Origin: Acidisarcina sp.
GTDB lineage: Bacteria > Acidobacteriota > Blastocatellia > Pyrinomonadales > Pyrinomonadaceae
Assembly: GCA_021155145.1 (NCBI GenBank)
Contig: JAJNPX010000136.1
Location: forward strand, 1 to 10,962
Reading direction: 5' to 3'
Length of the DNA: 10,962 bases
Numbering within the stretch: position 1 is the stretch's first letter; each line of letters opens with the position of its first letter. Of the stretch, positions 2,197 to 9,679 are shown piece by piece. Both the position numbers and the translations under genes were made by a program. The notes beneath the pieces were generated by a model. It saw nothing but the letters and a program-made list of their open reading frames with translations. It did not search any database and was not told the DNA's origin.

Positions 2197-3005
2197 ACGA
2201 ACTCACACCCGAAGAGATCGAGCTCAACAAGAAACGCCGCGTTCTGGAGCGGCTCAAAGATAAGCTCGCCGATCGGGAAGAGGAAATGGCTGATCTGCGT
2301 GCGGAGCTTGAGCAGTTCGAAGCACGATACTCGATGGATGTCGCGCGTCTTTACGCACAGTTTGACGAGATCGAAGCTGAGATAGCCGAAGAAGAATTAA
2401 AGCTCGTACCCGATGATGAGGAAATAAAGAAACGGGTCGAGGAACTCCGCCGACGTGCCGAAGAGTCAGCCGCTCGGGCCGAAGCGGCTCACGACGCAGA
2501 AGAATATATCCCTACGCAGGAGGCGAAAAAGGCATACCACGACCTTGCCCGGTCGATCCATCCCGACCTCGCACTTGACGCGAACGAAAAGGAACGACGC
2601 CACGGACTGATGGCCGAGTTGAATCAGGCCTATTCATCCGGCGACCAGCAGAAGCTGGACAAGATGATCGAGGACCTTCGGCATAGCCCGGACACGATCA
2701 AAGGAGACTCGGTCGGCGACTCGCTCGTGCGCGCGATCAGGCAGATCTATCAGATAAACAAACGATTTCGTGAGCTTGATCGCGAAAAGGCCGACGCTGA
2801 GGCATCGGAACTATATGAGTTGAGGGTGAAGGCCGAGTCCGAATTGGCGGCGGGCCGGGACCTCTTGAAACAGATGGCCGAACGCACGAAAACACATATC
2901 TTAAAGGCGTCTCGAAGGCTGGAGAATCTTCGGAGCGTCAACGCTGCACAGGAAGAATATGTGAAGGAAGAATTCGGAATGGATATATCAGACTTCCGGA
3001 AATGA
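2193..3005 (+). CDS. Coiled-coil protein with J-domain-like HPD segment
   Basis: A 270-aa, highly charged cytoplasmic protein. Residues 5-100 are almost continuous Glu/Lys/Arg-rich heptads, predicted coiled coil. Residues 108-160 resemble a J-domain-like module: KKAYHDLARSIHPDLA with H123-P124-D125, then a helix ending in MAELNQAYSSGD (140-151). Residues 180-250 form a second coiled coil. In J-domain proteins the HPD loop stimulates DnaK ATPase; whether this insert does so is unknown. The start overlaps the bshB1 stop by four bases, so translation is probably coupled, although no pathway link is obvious. The final 18 bp overlap, tail to tail, the end of the minus-strand TPR gene. No symbol is justified. 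Confidence 0.8.
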   Translation: MNELTPEEIELNKKRRVLERLKDKLADREEEMADLRAELEQFEARYSMDVARLYAQFDEIEAEIAEEELKLVPDDEEIKKRVEELRRRAEESAARAEAAHDAEEYIPTQEAKKAYHDLARSIHPDLALDANEKERRHGLMAELNQAYSSGDQQKLDKMIEDLRHSPDTIKGDSVGDSLVRAIRQIYQINKRFRELDREKADAEASELYELRVKAESELAAGRDLLKQMAERTKTHILKASRRLENLRSVNAAQEEYVKEEFGMDISDFRK

Positions 3006-4475
3006 CCGGCGGCCTTCGACCGGCCGCACGATCCGTCTGCCATCGGCCCCGGCTTCACCGACGATCCCTACGATCTTGCCGATCACCTTGACCGAGTCGA
3101 GGTCGAAAAGCTGCGGTTCCGACCCGCAGCCCTCGAGACACACGAGTCCAAAATCCGAATCGTAAAAACCGCAGCTGATCTCGCCCGACGCGATCTCCGA
3201 CAGGGCGACGAGATCACCACGCGCTATCGGTGCCTCCACCGCGATCGTCAGCGAGCCCTTCTTGATCCCGATCTGTTCGAGGTGGCCATTGTTGATCCAA
3301 ATACCCTGATATCGGGTGAACGCAGCAAGCGAGGGAGGTATCTCAAGCGCCAGGTCGCCCGATTCGAGTTCCGAAAGGCTCTTCTTGCCCTTTTCAGATT
3401 CGTTTCGCTCCTGCAGTGACGTCTCGAACCTTGCAATGAGAACCTTGGCAAGCTCATTGCCCGAATAGGTCTTGGCCATCTGAACGGCCTCGGTCAATAC
3501 TGAAAGAGCTGCCCTCAGATGGCCGATCCGTGCGAGTATTCGTGCTTCCGTAACCAGAGCTTCTGCTAAAAACCCCTTATTTTCTCCGTTTTTCAGTAGA
3601 GAAACGGCCGATTCGATCGTGACGAGCGCCTCGTCGAACCGCTTTGCATCAAGATAAATTCCGGCCTTCGTATCCCAAAGCAGGCCTTCGCGCGACATAT
3701 CGCCTATCAACCGGAACACATCGATACCGCGATCGACCGCCGCGTGGGCCTCTTCAAAACGCCCAAGCGACTTGAAAACCAGGGCACGTTCATTCTCGAT
3801 CGAACCGAGATACATCCATATCGATGAACGCCCGGACCGGTAACGGCCCTCTTCGTAGCAGCGAAGCGCTTCCTCCAGCCGGCCGGTCTCTACAAGTCCG
3901 ATGCCCGCATTGATATAGAAACTAGCTCCGATCCAGTCATCGGCCCACGTCCGAAAAACAGATCCGTAGCGATGGTAGATCTCGACATTCTCGGCATAAC
4001 GCTCTTCGCTCACATTTATGAGCATTTCGTACATCACCGAAGCGAGCCGGTGGATGTTCGTCTCAGGTAATGGGCGGGCCTTTGCCGCAGCGAGCCACGT
4101 TCTCGACTCGGCGTATTCGCCGGTTCGCGAGTAAGTGAGCGCAATATGGTTCTCACATTCGGCCGCCATTTCTTCATTCCCCTGGGTCTCAAGATCGCCC
4201 AGGACGGCAGTGAGGATATCGCGGGCGCGCAACTGCGAACCCGGGATCTTTCGATAGTGTCCCTGGTAGCCGAGAAGGCTGGCAAATCGGAGGTGAAGTT
4301 CGGCCCTGAGTTGGAGCGGCAGGCCGCGTGAATCCGGCAAGAAATCGGGGGCCGCCCAGTCAACAGAAACTTCGCGCAACCCGTTTTCGAACTGGCCGCA
4401 GCGCTCGAACCTCCAGAGGGTTCGGATCAGCTCCTGTGCCTTTGTGTTTGTGGCGTTTGTGGGGAAAGCGGCCAT
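2988..4475 (-). CDS. TPR protein with C-terminal LexA/S24-like domain
   Basis: This 495-aa soluble protein has an all-helical first three quarters with about five TPR-like helix pairs (roughly residues 107-134, 184-212, 224-254, 264-294, 304-334; for example ETGRLEEALRCYEEG). After a charged linker, residues 402-472 match the S24/LexA beta fold: GIKKGSLTIAVE, ARGDLVALSE, GFYDSDFGLVCLEG and VKVIGKIVGIV line up with its core strands. The GDSM catalytic serine is absent (NNGHLEQI in its place) and the expected lysine is not found, so it is probably a non-proteolytic binding or dimerisation module. There is no HTH. I chose the ATG at 4475; a TTG at 4484 would add three residues. It is divergent from the small secreted-peptide gene across 78 bp. 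A peptide- or ligand-sensing role is inference. Confidence 0.8.
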   Translation of the reverse strand: MAAFPTNATNTKAQELIRTLWRFERCGQFENGLREVSVDWAAPDFLPDSRGLPLQLRAELHLRFASLLGYQGHYRKIPGSQLRARDILTAVLGDLETQGNEEMAAECENHIALTYSRTGEYAESRTWLAAAKARPLPETNIHRLASVMYEMLINVSEERYAENVEIYHRYGSVFRTWADDWIGASFYINAGIGLVETGRLEEALRCYEEGRYRSGRSSIWMYLGSIENERALVFKSLGRFEEAHAAVDRGIDVFRLIGDMSREGLLWDTKAGIYLDAKRFDEALVTIESAVSLLKNGENKGFLAEALVTEARILARIGHLRAALSVLTEAVQMAKTYSGNELAKVLIARFETSLQERNESEKGKKSLSELESGDLALEIPPSLAAFTRYQGIWINNGHLEQIGIKKGSLTIAVEAPIARGDLVALSEIASGEISCGFYDSDFGLVCLEGCGSEPQLFDLDSVKVIGKIVGIVGEAGADGRRIVRPVEGRRSFPEV

Positions 4476-4512
4476 AACGAACAAAACACACGATTCTTGC
4501 TAGTATGTTCTG

Positions 4513-4527
4513 GATACAAAGTGTATC
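4513..4527. promoter_or_regulatory. Palindrome in divergent TPR/peptide control region
   Basis: GATACA-AAG-TGTATC is a perfect 6-bp inverted repeat with a 3-bp centre. It lies inside the 78-bp region from which the TPR gene (leftward) and the peptide gene (rightward) must both be transcribed. A TTGCTA hexamer at 4497-4502 could be a plus-strand -35, but the best -10 options are weak and overlap the right arm. An operator for a dimeric repressor is the simplest reading; which protein binds is unknown. Confidence 0.45.
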
Positions 4528-4542
4528 AGAAAACCCAAAAAA

Positions 4543-4547
4543 AGGAG
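4543..4547 (+). promoter_or_regulatory. Ribosome binding site that sets the peptide start
   Basis: AGGAG with a 6-base spacer (AATTTT) precedes the ATG at 4554. It is one of the clearest Shine-Dalgarno sites in the window and decides against the longer in-frame start at 4497. Confidence 0.8.
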
Positions 4548-4553
4548 AATTTT

Positions 4554-4805
4554 ATGAAACTCGTAGCAACACTTTTCCTGGCGCTTTCCCTATTCACATC
4601 AGCGGCAATTGCAGACGACGGACACACCGGAACCGGCAACCGTGACGGCTGTACGATCAATTGTCCGCCGCCGTGCCAGGAAGGCTGCTTCACTTCCGGC
4701 GAGACTGGCGGCTTGGGCGCTGTTTCGGGCTCGACCGCTGAAACTCAGGAGGAACCGTCCTTTTTCGAGTTCTGGAGCGATCTGATAATCGATCTAGTAA
4801 GTTAG
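4554..4805 (+). CDS. Small secreted Cys-motif peptide precursor, 83 aa
   Basis: I do not recognise a named family. Residues 1-20 are a textbook Sec signal peptide (MKLVATLFLALSLFTSAAIA) with AIA before DD as the likely cleavage site. The mature part, about 63 aa, begins DDGHTGTGNRDG and then has four cysteines spaced exactly every fourth residue: C33, C37, C41, C45 (CTINCPPPCQEGC). After a Gly/Ser/Thr-rich linker it ends in a Glu-rich, aromatic and hydrophobic tail (FFEFWSDLIIDLV). The four Cys could bind a metal or form two disulfides. It is flanked by the divergent TPR gene and, 24 bp beyond its stop, the end of a convergent HTH repressor gene. The start is fixed by the AGGAG site. A signal peptide, toxin-like or structural role cannot be chosen from sequence. 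Confidence 0.75.
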   Translation: MKLVATLFLALSLFTSAAIADDGHTGTGNRDGCTINCPPPCQEGCFTSGETGGLGAVSGSTAETQEEPSFFEFWSDLIIDLVS

Positions 4806-4829
4806 TAACAAAAACGCCGGAACGCCCTA

Positions 4830-5270
4830 TCACTCGCTAGCTTCGACCGGAAGTTTGGGCGTTTCGGACTTGATCTCGTCAGCCCGCAGTACGATGGTCT
4901 TCGGTCGGGAAAGGTCAGTCTCCCTGCTTAGGACGGATTCGCGCACCGCCGACGCAACTTCCTGCCGTATAAGTTCACTTATCTGGCGGGCAAGTATTGT
5001 TGTGTCTTCACGTCCCCGGCCGATCGCGAGCTTTTCACCCTCGCCCGTCAGTAGCCAGTGAATGGAGTAGGGGGTTCGCTCTGCGATCGTCAACAAGACT
5101 CGGGTATCCGGAAGCCGGCCATTAAGATAATTCTTTGCCGCCTGATAGGAGATATTCAATGCCCGTTGAATACGTGCGGGCTCAAACGTTCCGCACACCT
5201 CCGCGAAACGCTTACCAAATTGAACTTTTTCTATATCCGTCGCATTTTCGCTTGACATTGATTTCGCCAT
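4830..5270 (-). CDS. CI/XRE-like HTH transcriptional repressor, 146 aa
   Basis: A DNA-binding protein resembling the N-terminal half of phage CI-type repressors. Residues about 17-75 hold the helical domain, with the helix-turn-helix in PARIQRALNISYQAAKNYLNG (31-51) followed by TRVLLTIAERTPYSIHWLLTGEG (57-77), the sequence pattern typical of CI-like domains. After residue 80 there is a helical stretch (90-112) and a polar tail; the S24/LexA-like C-terminal domain expected in full CI repressors is missing. Such a domain instead sits at the end of the TPR protein nearby. The ATG at 5270 follows a promoter with an embedded palindrome, which suggests autorepression. It converges on the secreted-peptide gene with 24 bp between stops. 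Target genes are unknown. Confidence 0.82.
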   Translation of the reverse strand: MAKSMSSENATDIEKVQFGKRFAEVCGTFEPARIQRALNISYQAAKNYLNGRLPDTRVLLTIAERTPYSIHWLLTGEGEKLAIGRGREDTTILARQISELIRQEVASAVRESVLSRETDLSRPKTIVLRADEIKSETPKLPVEASE

Positions 5271-5308
5271 CGTGTAATTATTTTACACGGTCGTTGAAGA
5301 AGTGTAAA
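5271..5308 (-). promoter_or_regulatory. Promoter and operator of the HTH repressor gene
   Basis: On the minus strand TTTACA (5308-5303) and TAAAAT (5285-5280), each 5 of 6 to the sigma-70 consensus, are 17 bp apart. A perfect palindrome, CGTGTAA-TTATT-TTACACG (5271-5289), covers the -10 and runs up to the start codon. A third GTGTAA half-site (5302-5307) covers the -35. A repressor bound here would block RNA polymerase; self-binding by the HTH protein is the simplest inference. Confidence 0.7.
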
Positions 5309-5374: not shown

Positions 5375-5410
5375 AAAAAAGAGGGAAACGGTGTGGGAGA
5401 CGTTTCCCTC
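5375..5410 (-). terminator. Intrinsic terminator of the flavoprotein operon
   Basis: A perfect 10-bp stem (5381-5390 GAGGGAAACG with 5401-5410) and a 10-base loop. On the minus strand it is followed by a run of six T (complement of 5375-5380). It sits 8 bp after the stop of the flavoprotein gene. Confidence 0.88.
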
Positions 5411-8621: not shown

Positions 8622-9679
8622 TCAGGGCTTTTCCTCGATCACTGGTTCGGAATCTTCCGGGCCGATGATGATGTCCGTTCCAAACTTCTGGTAGTTGGTA
8701 AAGCGGATCAGATTGCGAGACTCGTAAACGTTGCTTTTTTCCCTGAATGTCAGGCGTACATCCGAGACGAGCGGCAGCAGATATCTTTCGTCGGAGATCG
8801 TGGTCCAATCGTAGTCGATCGTGCGTCGGGCCGTCCTGATCGGAAAATTCTCCGGTATCTCGGTCGCTTCGCTTTCGACACGCAAACCCGAAATTCATCG
8901 CGATCTATCCAGATGCGGCCCTTCATTCCGGTAAGCGTCATTTGCGAATAGCCTCCGCCCGCTATGATCTGCTGCTTCGCCTTATCACGCTCTACCGAGA
9001 AATCGAAGATCACCGTATTGCGTCCGCGTACCAGATCAGTTTGCACGGGCGTGAATTCCGTTTCGCTTTCGGGTTTGAAGATAGTGGCCAGCATGGTGAC
9101 GAACTCTCCCGTCGAGCTTGTCCCCCCTGCCTCCTCGTAACTCCTCTTCGATTCCGCATTCGCCTGCAGGGCTCCATTGATCGAGAGCAGTTTATACGAT
9201 TCCTCGCCGCTTGAACGGTAGCTTACGGCCACGATCAGCTTATCCAGATTGCGAAAATTTCCCGTACCTGCATATGCCTCCGAACGCTGGATCTGCTGTT
9301 TTACCACGAAATCCGGCATTTCGCCGACGGCCTCTAGAGTCTTGCGACGCGTCTTGTCTATTAGCCCTGCGGTCTCGAGTGCCGTCGGAAGGCGCGTGCC
9401 CTCCGGGTCTTTCCGACGCCGTTCGGCTTCTTCGAGTGCACGCTTTAGCTCGTCGTCGTTTGCTCCTTTCGAACGAGTAAGGCTGCGGATCCCGTCATTC
9501 AGGGCGAAACCGATGCCCCTCCTGCGAAGGGCGTCTACCACTTCCGACTTGTTGACCGATCTACGCTCGATGCCGTACAGGAGCTGAACGTACTCGGCCT
9601 GTGTAAGCGGTTTCTCCTGAGCCAGGACCGGGACGCAGAACATCAGGGCCAGGATCACATAAACAATAAAAGGTCTCAT
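8622..9679 (-). pseudogene. Secreted unknown protein, interrupted by one frameshift
   Basis: The frame from the ATG at 9679 encodes a signal peptide (MRPFIVYVILALMFCVPVLA) and then a helical segment (LTQAEYVQLLYGIERR to ELKRALEEAERRRKDP, residues 25-92). A beta-rich domain follows from about 125. At residue 265 (IWIDRDEFRV) the frame turns into Arg-rich sequence and stops at 8750. The sensible continuation, LRVESEATEIPENFPIRTAR through IDYDWTTISDERYLLPLVSD to VIEEKP, is in the next frame and stops at 8622. One extra base in the AAA/CCC runs at 8884-8889 would join them into about 352 residues. The family is not recognised by name; I have the impression of similar acidobacterial proteins. Sequencing error or real decay cannot be told apart here. 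Confidence 0.8.

Follow-up and report, generated by a model that had tools for sequence, protein, structure and literature searches.

A divergent TPR and predicted exported-peptide gene cassette of Acidobacteriota and viral contigs, resembling RRNPP and arbitrium systems

Could a bacterium with two membranes use exported peptides that are sensed in the cytoplasm by a receptor built of tetratricopeptide repeats (TPR)? The question is raised by a stretch of DNA of 10,962 nucleotides from an Acidobacteriota metagenome assembly (contig JAJNPX010000136.1; the whole stretch is called the window below), in which a gene for a TPR protein with a LexA/S24-like end, a divergent gene for a small precursor with a predicted signal peptide and a gene for a CI-like helix-turn-helix (HTH) protein lie together. 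Acidobacteriota are diderm, Gram-negative bacteria. RRNPP signalling (Rap-Phr, NprR-NprX, PlcR-PapR, Rgg, PrgX) is presented, in the accessible parts of the sources, as belonging to Firmicutes or Gram-positive bacteria. No paper on RRNPP in Acidobacteria was found in the open-access literature, nor any prior report of such a system, most subscription journals and bioRxiv lying outside that search. An initial annotation, made from the window alone, had placed the three genes together and proposed an RRNPP-like link between them; their coordinates and strands were confirmed, as was the 83-aa precursor with a signal peptide by a crude rule (Table 1). Our analysis suggests that the cassette is probably an RRNPP/arbitrium-like peptide communication system in a diderm phylum. 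In our best reading, the same TPR/peptide system is also present in phages, and the cassette of the window is its two-protein version.

Linkage of the TPR and peptide genes

Relatives of the TPR protein were sought in 119 genomes of one Acidobacteriota order, that of the related locus L001, which comes from a metagenome-assembled genome of Acidobacteria gp4. They occur in 62 of the 119 genomes at E 1e-10, and a profile of the Fis-type members (see Output modules) places the family in 64 of them at 1e-20, with up to 11 copies each; as at most 13 candidates were scored per genome, these copy counts are lower bounds. The phylum-level search gave at least 9 of 396 genomes (E 1e-12, three candidates scored per genome), all nine from the same order. 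At class level at least 72 of 162 genomes were positive (nine candidates scored per genome), with eight outside the order showing weak matches (E 6e-27 to 2e-23). On plasmids, nine records had partial TPR matches, none spanning 80% of the query.

A set of 112 distinct TPR genes was delimited by hidden Markov model from the upper part of the ranked order list and from the phylum-search loci; six with less than 400 bp of upstream sequence were dropped, and 106 were tested against 227 other long open reading frames (ORFs) from the same loci. Of the 106 TPR genes, 101 are accompanied by a divergent ORF (40-150 aa) that a simple rule credits with a signal peptide; the same holds for 16 of the 227 controls. 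Under a strict rule (ATG start, 45-110 aa, start within 300 bp) the counts were 97/106 and 2/227. The arrangement is far beyond chance. On 20 further loci not used before, 19 were positive; these are paralogues in the same genome set and make a replicate, not a sample of independent species. A strong Shine-Dalgarno (SD) sequence precedes 73 of 99 peptide genes, compared with 2 of 97 in a control interval, and the pooled nonsynonymous and synonymous values (pN 0.21, pS 0.45; 35 close, non-independent pairs) indicate coding constraint. The precursors of 99 relatives are 50-108 aa long (83 aa in the window), and 41 of the 112 TPR relatives exceed 560 aa (495 aa in the window). Four family TPR genes stand within about 25 kb on contig C53 of genome G108 (L082, L088, L089), a local expansion; a divergent peptide gene was found at three of them, and the fourth is short of upstream sequence.

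Precursor peptides

The precursors are hypervariable, and their units are often repeated. They share a layout of signal peptide, short unit, variable and often proline-rich linker, and hydrophobic C-terminal tail, whose mean hydropathy is above 0 in 96 of 98. Export by Sec is predicted from the crude signal-peptide rule, to which the precursors of 101 of the 106 loci conform. The commonest residues of the unit are G-[DE]-[IM]-x-[TS]-[PG], position 4 being the most variable between close relatives. The heptamer after the signal peptide recurs, with at least five of seven residues identical, in 37 of 98 precursors (expected: 0.86 with shuffled and 2.58 with swapped tails) and, in a further set, in 10 of 19 (0.07 and 0.61). 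Since this recurrence exceeds the swapped-tail control, the unit copies within one precursor are more alike than the units of different precursors. The cleavage rule behind the test, adjusted by eye, prefers G, D, E or N as the residue following the cut, and the swapped-tail control was made with the same choice. Excluded from the 98 were L073 and L053, for which the automatic ORF choice was wrong and the proper peptide lies in another frame (both still count among the 101 linked loci), and L089, for which no cleavage site was called.

Paralogues of one genome differ in their units: genome G040 has seven cassettes with seven different units. The unit corresponding to that of the window occurs in at least two copies in the relatives L137, L138, L139, L056 and L001. 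In L061, a relative of the repeat type, the predicted unit is GETQSPPC. The initial annotation had singled out a DGHTGTG start and four Cys as marks of the peptide; the start is kept as a loose pattern, and four Cys are not general, their number per precursor ranging from 0 to 5. The Phr-like precursor of phage phi3T shows a unit duplication like that of the family, and RRNPPA propeptides carry one to four pheromone copies, according to the accessible part of PMC11343458. Mantel correlations with TPR distance were -0.78 for the tail, -0.46 for the signal peptide and -0.25 for the unit. As the tail tracks TPR distance best, it stays a rival candidate for the receptor-binding part.

Output modules

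No N-terminal HTH or Rap-type effector domain was found in the TPR family; its outputs are C-terminal or on another protein. A C-terminal Fis-type HTH was present in 36 of 37 shorter relatives scanned, a selection from the 55 without a CI-like HTH gene. The 41 long relatives carry a receiver domain in 30 cases, HTH_8 in 30 and a sigma-54 domain in 10. In the clade of the window, the TPR protein has an S24-like C-terminal domain and a CI-like HTH gene is adjacent. DNA binding by a separate protein, as initially proposed, thus holds for this clade and not for the family in general. The ~360-aa TPR genes of L057, L149 and L058 come with a peptide gene, lack an output domain and show no CI-like HTH gene in the flanking sequence retrieved; by analogy with Rap, their products might act on another protein.

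The CI-like HTH gene was found at 16 of 16 S24-ended TPR loci with usable flanks, one of them doubtful (L059, whose weak HTH match lies downstream of the TPR gene, on the opposite side), and in the layout of the window at 15 of 16. The HTH and peptide genes converge at 32 bp or less in 11 of 15 loci, the gap being 289-961 bp in L141, L056 and L148. Conservation of the TPR gene without its neighbours, or independent variation of the three genes, had been named as speaking against their link; the pattern found, with a peptide gene at 101/106 TPR genes and an HTH gene at 16/16, did not refute it.

The TPRs of the window protein are clear in Pfam (TPR_12, 3.8e-12), and its LexA/S24-like end is borderline by sequence: Peptidase_S24 matched 2 of 10 C-terminal domains (best E 0.0085), and LexA 3k2z was reached at E 0.0039, with a leucine-rich-repeat protein slightly ahead (0.0034). 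The structure model shows a separate beta domain at this end. In the weak 3k2z alignment, His/Asp and Gly stand at the places of the Ser and Lys of the LexA catalytic dyad. The HTH gene was likewise recovered, with its repressor assignment under the curated Pfam cut-offs (HTH_3 0.0066 and Phage_CI_repr 0.043, both weak; 14.6 bits against a cut-off of 22 bits for the latter); the protein matches PHROG regulator families at 4.1e-6. In L158 (viral), L096 and L084 a Fis-like HTH and an S24-like end seemingly share one chain, in an alignment read by eye. If that alignment is right, HTH, S24-like domain and TPRs occur either fused or side by side, which argues for their working together. Many HTH proteins of the clade also share a short C-terminal motif after a variable linker (KTIVLRADEIKSE in the window, KVVVLQSGSLKSEK in L001). 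Judged from sequence, the TPR-S24-like partner could dock at this motif.

Promoter sites

The operator-like palindrome noted initially at the HTH promoter, CGTGTAATTATTTTACACG, stood up well, with 0 matches in 200 shuffles. Among the loci of the clade, the best GTGTAAA/TTTACAC site scores at least 12/14 in 7 of 17, including the window (0.2 expected from shuffles), and lies at a fixed place, 90-93 bases before the protein anchor, in 13 of 17. GATAC and GTATC half-sites that match at 10/10 with a spacing of 4-8 bp occur in 7 of 16 clade loci, including the window, and in 0 of 83 other loci, a score that none of 200 shuffles attained. Enumeration in the other clade picked out the 8-mer CTTGCAAG, which 18 of 83 intergenic regions contain (0.1 expected). 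A GAFTGA search found no protein; sigma-54 promoters upstream of peptide genes are thus no evidence on autoinduction. A conserved inverted repeat (window 5382-5409; minus strand AGGGAAACGTCTCCCACACCGTTTCCCT) lies between the flavoprotein and HTH genes; L137 and L143 also have it 5' of their HTH genes, and L146 has a near-copy.

Cassettes on viral contigs

Scans of IMG/VR gave seven loci with the Fis-type family and nine with the long family, the nine including five repeats and one non-family locus (L170). With the same contigs counted once (L155/L162, L154/L163, L156/L164, L157/L165, L160/L161/L169), ten distinct viral contigs (L154-L160, L166-L168) carry family TPR genes, and a divergent ORF of the signal-peptide type was found in 10/10. 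Phage genes stand around several of these cassettes: terminase, portal and minor head genes in L154 (the terminase found by PHROGs only), portal and minor head genes in L157, and a helicase and a repressor near the cassette of L160, whose contig also has a terminase. Terminase and integrase are present on the contig of L155, where the TPR gene has a start other than ATG. L156 has an integrase, L158 transposition and replication proteins, and L159 a weak terminase match. An integrase and a CI-like repressor are near the cassettes of L166 and L167, and a CI-like repressor is the sole phage sign seen in L168; the repressors of these three pass the Phage_CI_repr Pfam cut-off. Pfam places a terminase (PF03237) in 2 of 7 viral records and an integrase (PF00589) in 4 of 10. 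The IMG/VR scan with the window's own clade gave 12 stretches and no relative, and tblastn of two viral TPR proteins against named phages (INPHARED) gave no match at E 1e-3. By gene content, the viral TPR/peptide pairs form an arbitrium-like arrangement.

Comparison with known systems

In its model, the TPR domain looks similar to Rap, NprR and AimR, but likewise to other TPR proteins, and the sequence profile reaches RapJ, RapF, Rap105 and NprR at 1e-4 to 9e-4. The Rap/NprR-like modelled fold, together with the repeated unit after the signal peptide in relatives, supports the RRNPP-like arrangement seen in the initial annotation. As in RRNPP systems, a gene for a small precursor of predicted Sec type adjoins a TPR receptor-like gene, the predicted superhelix is similar to those of Rap and NprR, the precursors have one to several copies of a short unit, and the output is a fused HTH or a separate protein. 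RRNPP systems, however, belong to Bacillota, whereas the family's hosts are diderm Acidobacteriota; the precursor gene is divergent from the TPR gene; and the HTH, if fused, is C-terminal and of the Fis type, or the outputs are of the receiver, sigma-54 or S24-like kinds. The unit stands at the start of the mature part, while the RRNPP pheromone is typically at the end (PMC11343458, accessible part). In the accessible part of PMC10075063, the RRNPP/RRNPPA criteria are a propeptide of 10-100 aa, Sec export, a receptor of 250-500 aa, TPRs and neighbouring genes; the window has a propeptide of 83 aa and a TPR receptor of 495 aa, with the genes 78 bp apart. The sequence comparisons give no convincing homology, and neither homology to Rap nor RRNPPA membership by descent is established by them. 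The family is classed here as working like RRNPP/arbitrium and not as a member, since it lacks the N-terminal effector domain and its homology is unproven.

N228 is invariant in an alignment of 74 TPR sequences, and the weak Rap alignment sets it one residue off. Asn227 of RapF is the conserved asparagine that binds the peptide backbone (PMC3601957, accessible part). With the Rap alignment too weak, this asparagine was dropped as an argument for membership.

The likeness to the arbitrium system of Bacillus phages (AimR-AimP) lies in the viral contigs, which bear a TPR regulator and a predicted exported peptide, with an integrase (L166, L167) and a CI-like repressor (L166, L167, L168) nearby. 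The output is different, being Fis-type or S24-like (no aimX-like part was sought), and the window itself has no phage gene among the ten proteins scanned with Pfam. With the LexA and lambda CI repressors (HTH plus S24) the cassette has in common a CI-like HTH and an S24-like domain. In the clade of the window, however, these are on two proteins, the S24-like domain is attached to TPRs, and its LexA catalytic residues appear to be replaced in the weak alignment.

Proposed mechanism and alternatives

In the proposed mechanism, the small gene would give a precursor exported by Sec. Signal peptidase, together with other proteases, would then cut a short peptide from it, most probably the unit after the signal peptide (DDGHTGTGNR in the window). 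After crossing the outer membrane, this peptide would come back by way of porins and a peptide permease. Once in the cytoplasm, it would bind to the concave side of the TPR superhelix and so switch a DNA-binding module, either attached or on a partner protein. For most of the relatives scanned, the switched module would be the Fis-type HTH of the same chain. In the clade of the window the module would be split, the TPR-S24-like protein, which seems to have no protease residues, acting with the neighbouring CI-like HTH protein; the latter probably represses its own gene too. We infer maturation, outer-membrane passage, import, binding, the TPR-HTH partnership and the regulated genes from the arrangement of the cassette. 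Components of peptide permeases are present in 24/24 genomes with and 23/24 without the TPR family, so peptide import would be possible.

Several points weigh against a signalling role, among them the outer membrane, which the peptide would have to cross. At five of the 106 TPR genes the search found no peptide gene (L052, L033 with masked bases, L117, L085 and L084). No heptamer repeat of the kind described was found in 61 of 98 precursors, and the window precursor holds a single unit copy, its best internal match being 3/7. The receptor might read the tail rather than the unit, though shared descent alone could give the closer correlation of the tail. In fold comparison, the non-RRNPP TPR proteins LGN, APPBP2 and APC subunits score as high as or higher than the receptors; in the sequence profile, kinesin light chains and other TPR proteins outrank Rap and NprR; and hhalign with phage Rap gave weak matches (probability 9%, E 0.0036, and 2%). 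For the chains of L158, L096 and L084, Pfam gave a sub-threshold HTH_8 for L158 alone and S24 for none. The GATAC/GTATC and GTGTAAA/TTTACAC patterns were chosen from the same loci in which they were counted, and GATACAAAGTGTATC in the window alone is not significant, as 31 of 200 shuffles match at one mismatch. Moreover, GATACAAAGTGTATC differs from the palindrome of the HTH gene, CGTGTAATTATTTTACACG.

These points leave room for other explanations. The exported peptide could be an effector (antimicrobial, surface or structural) and the TPR protein a local regulator that senses something else. Local regulators beside their targets are common, the TPR protein has MalT-like TPR matches, and the divergent promoter region common to the peptide and TPR genes holds recurring palindromes. 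We nevertheless consider this unlikely: a regulator of another ligand gives no need for repeated units that differ between paralogues of one genome, and the TPR-peptide pair is kept across different outputs. To our knowledge, MalT-type TPR regulators have no adjacent exported peptide. If instead the TPR protein read the hydrophobic tail of unexported precursor in the cytoplasm, as a gauge of export or envelope stress, the hydrophobicity of 96/98 tails and their close tracking of TPR distance (Mantel r -0.78) would be accounted for; the repeats after the signal peptide, the diversified paralogues (up to 11 detected per genome) and the phage copies would not, and we regard such a gauge as quite improbable.

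The hydrophobic tail, the repressor-like HTH and the occurrence in phage contigs would also suit a toxin-antitoxin-like or immunity module, with the peptide a small membrane-active toxin held by the TPR/HTH pair. Such toxins do not usually have a cleavable signal peptide or hydrophilic units in repeats, and the flanking genes of the window, one or both, are kept at 16 of 25 loci examined, which indicates a settled chromosomal place; a toxin of this kind is thus highly improbable. Finally, the peptides of distant relatives barely align once past the signal peptide and the first stretch of the mature part, as would be the case if the genes were unrelated neighbours or the small ORF spurious. We give this almost no credence in view of the 97/106 loci compared with 2/227 controls, the 19/20 further loci, the SD sequences and the coding constraint.

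Organization of the window

Features of the cassette are listed in Table 1. The ORF list starts the TPR gene at 4484, an upstream TTG; the ATG start was taken instead. The peptide gene product has no Pfam match.

Table 1. Coordinates of cassette features in the window
Feature	Position	Strand	Remarks
TPR receptor-like gene	2988..4475	-	495 aa, ATG start; Pfam TPRs, modelled superhelix at residues ~9-365
C-terminal S24/LexA-like beta domain of TPR protein (putative)	3012..3359	-	residues ~373-488; model, weak LexA alignment
Divergent intergenic region, TPR gene/peptide gene	4476..4553	.	78 bp
Palindrome GATAC-N5-GTATC, GATACAAAGTGTATC	4513..4527	.	between TPR and peptide genes
Shine-Dalgarno-like AAGGAG, 5' of peptide gene	4542..4547	+	
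Small precursor gene, predicted exported peptide	4554..4805	+	83 aa
Predicted signal peptide, residues 1-20	4554..4613	+	cut after A20; crude rule
Candidate signal unit DDGHTGTGNR	4614..4643	+	one copy in window precursor
Hydrophobic C-terminal tail, last 12 residues	4767..4802	+	rival candidate receptor-binding part
CI-like HTH gene	4830..5270	-	146 aa; convergent with peptide gene
Operator-like palindrome CGTGTAATTATTTTACACG	5271..5289	.	overlaps promoter-like -10 of HTH gene
Promoter-like -10 of HTH gene	5285-5280	-	promoter scan: 2 found, 0.5 expected

The nearest proteins of the window are metagenomic. Taxa named among the best 120 of 2694 matches are Pyrinomonadaceae, Blastocatellia, Acidobacteria and Acidobacteriota, the other sources among the matches listed being plain 'bacterium' or 'soil metagenome'. 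One member of Acidobacteriota is called Gram-negative in the accessible part of PMC12816986. L001 has the same gene order as the window (flavoprotein, HTH, divergent peptide, TPR, DnaJ-like and PIG-L genes), and its peptide has little likeness to that of the window except in the signal peptide and where the mature part begins. Further along the window (8622-9679, minus strand), a gene is apparently split over two frames (ORFs 8750-9679 and 8622-8885); by its looks it corresponds to a 373-aa gene that is uninterrupted in L001.

Implications

The TPR/peptide pairing occurs in about half of the related genomes searched, with ever-changing peptide sequences. It is conceivable, though we hold this wider picture tentatively, that Acidobacteriota of one order and their phages run a large peptide-signalling network with its own TPR family and many peptide/receptor pairs per genome, in which an arbitrium-like version sits on temperate phages beside an integrase and a CI-like repressor, and a settled chromosomal cassette of the window's clade has its CI-like repressor split into an HTH protein and a TPR-S24-like receptor, the latter joining the former in a peptide-dependent way; such a network would be of the RRNPP kind and possibly of independent origin. 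If true, cytoplasmic sensing of exported peptides would exist also in bacteria with two membranes, a little-studied soil group would gain a readable signalling language whose predicted peptides are open to synthesis, and the origin of TPR pheromone receptors would become testable. The family points to an unrecognised peptide language outside Gram-positive bacteria.

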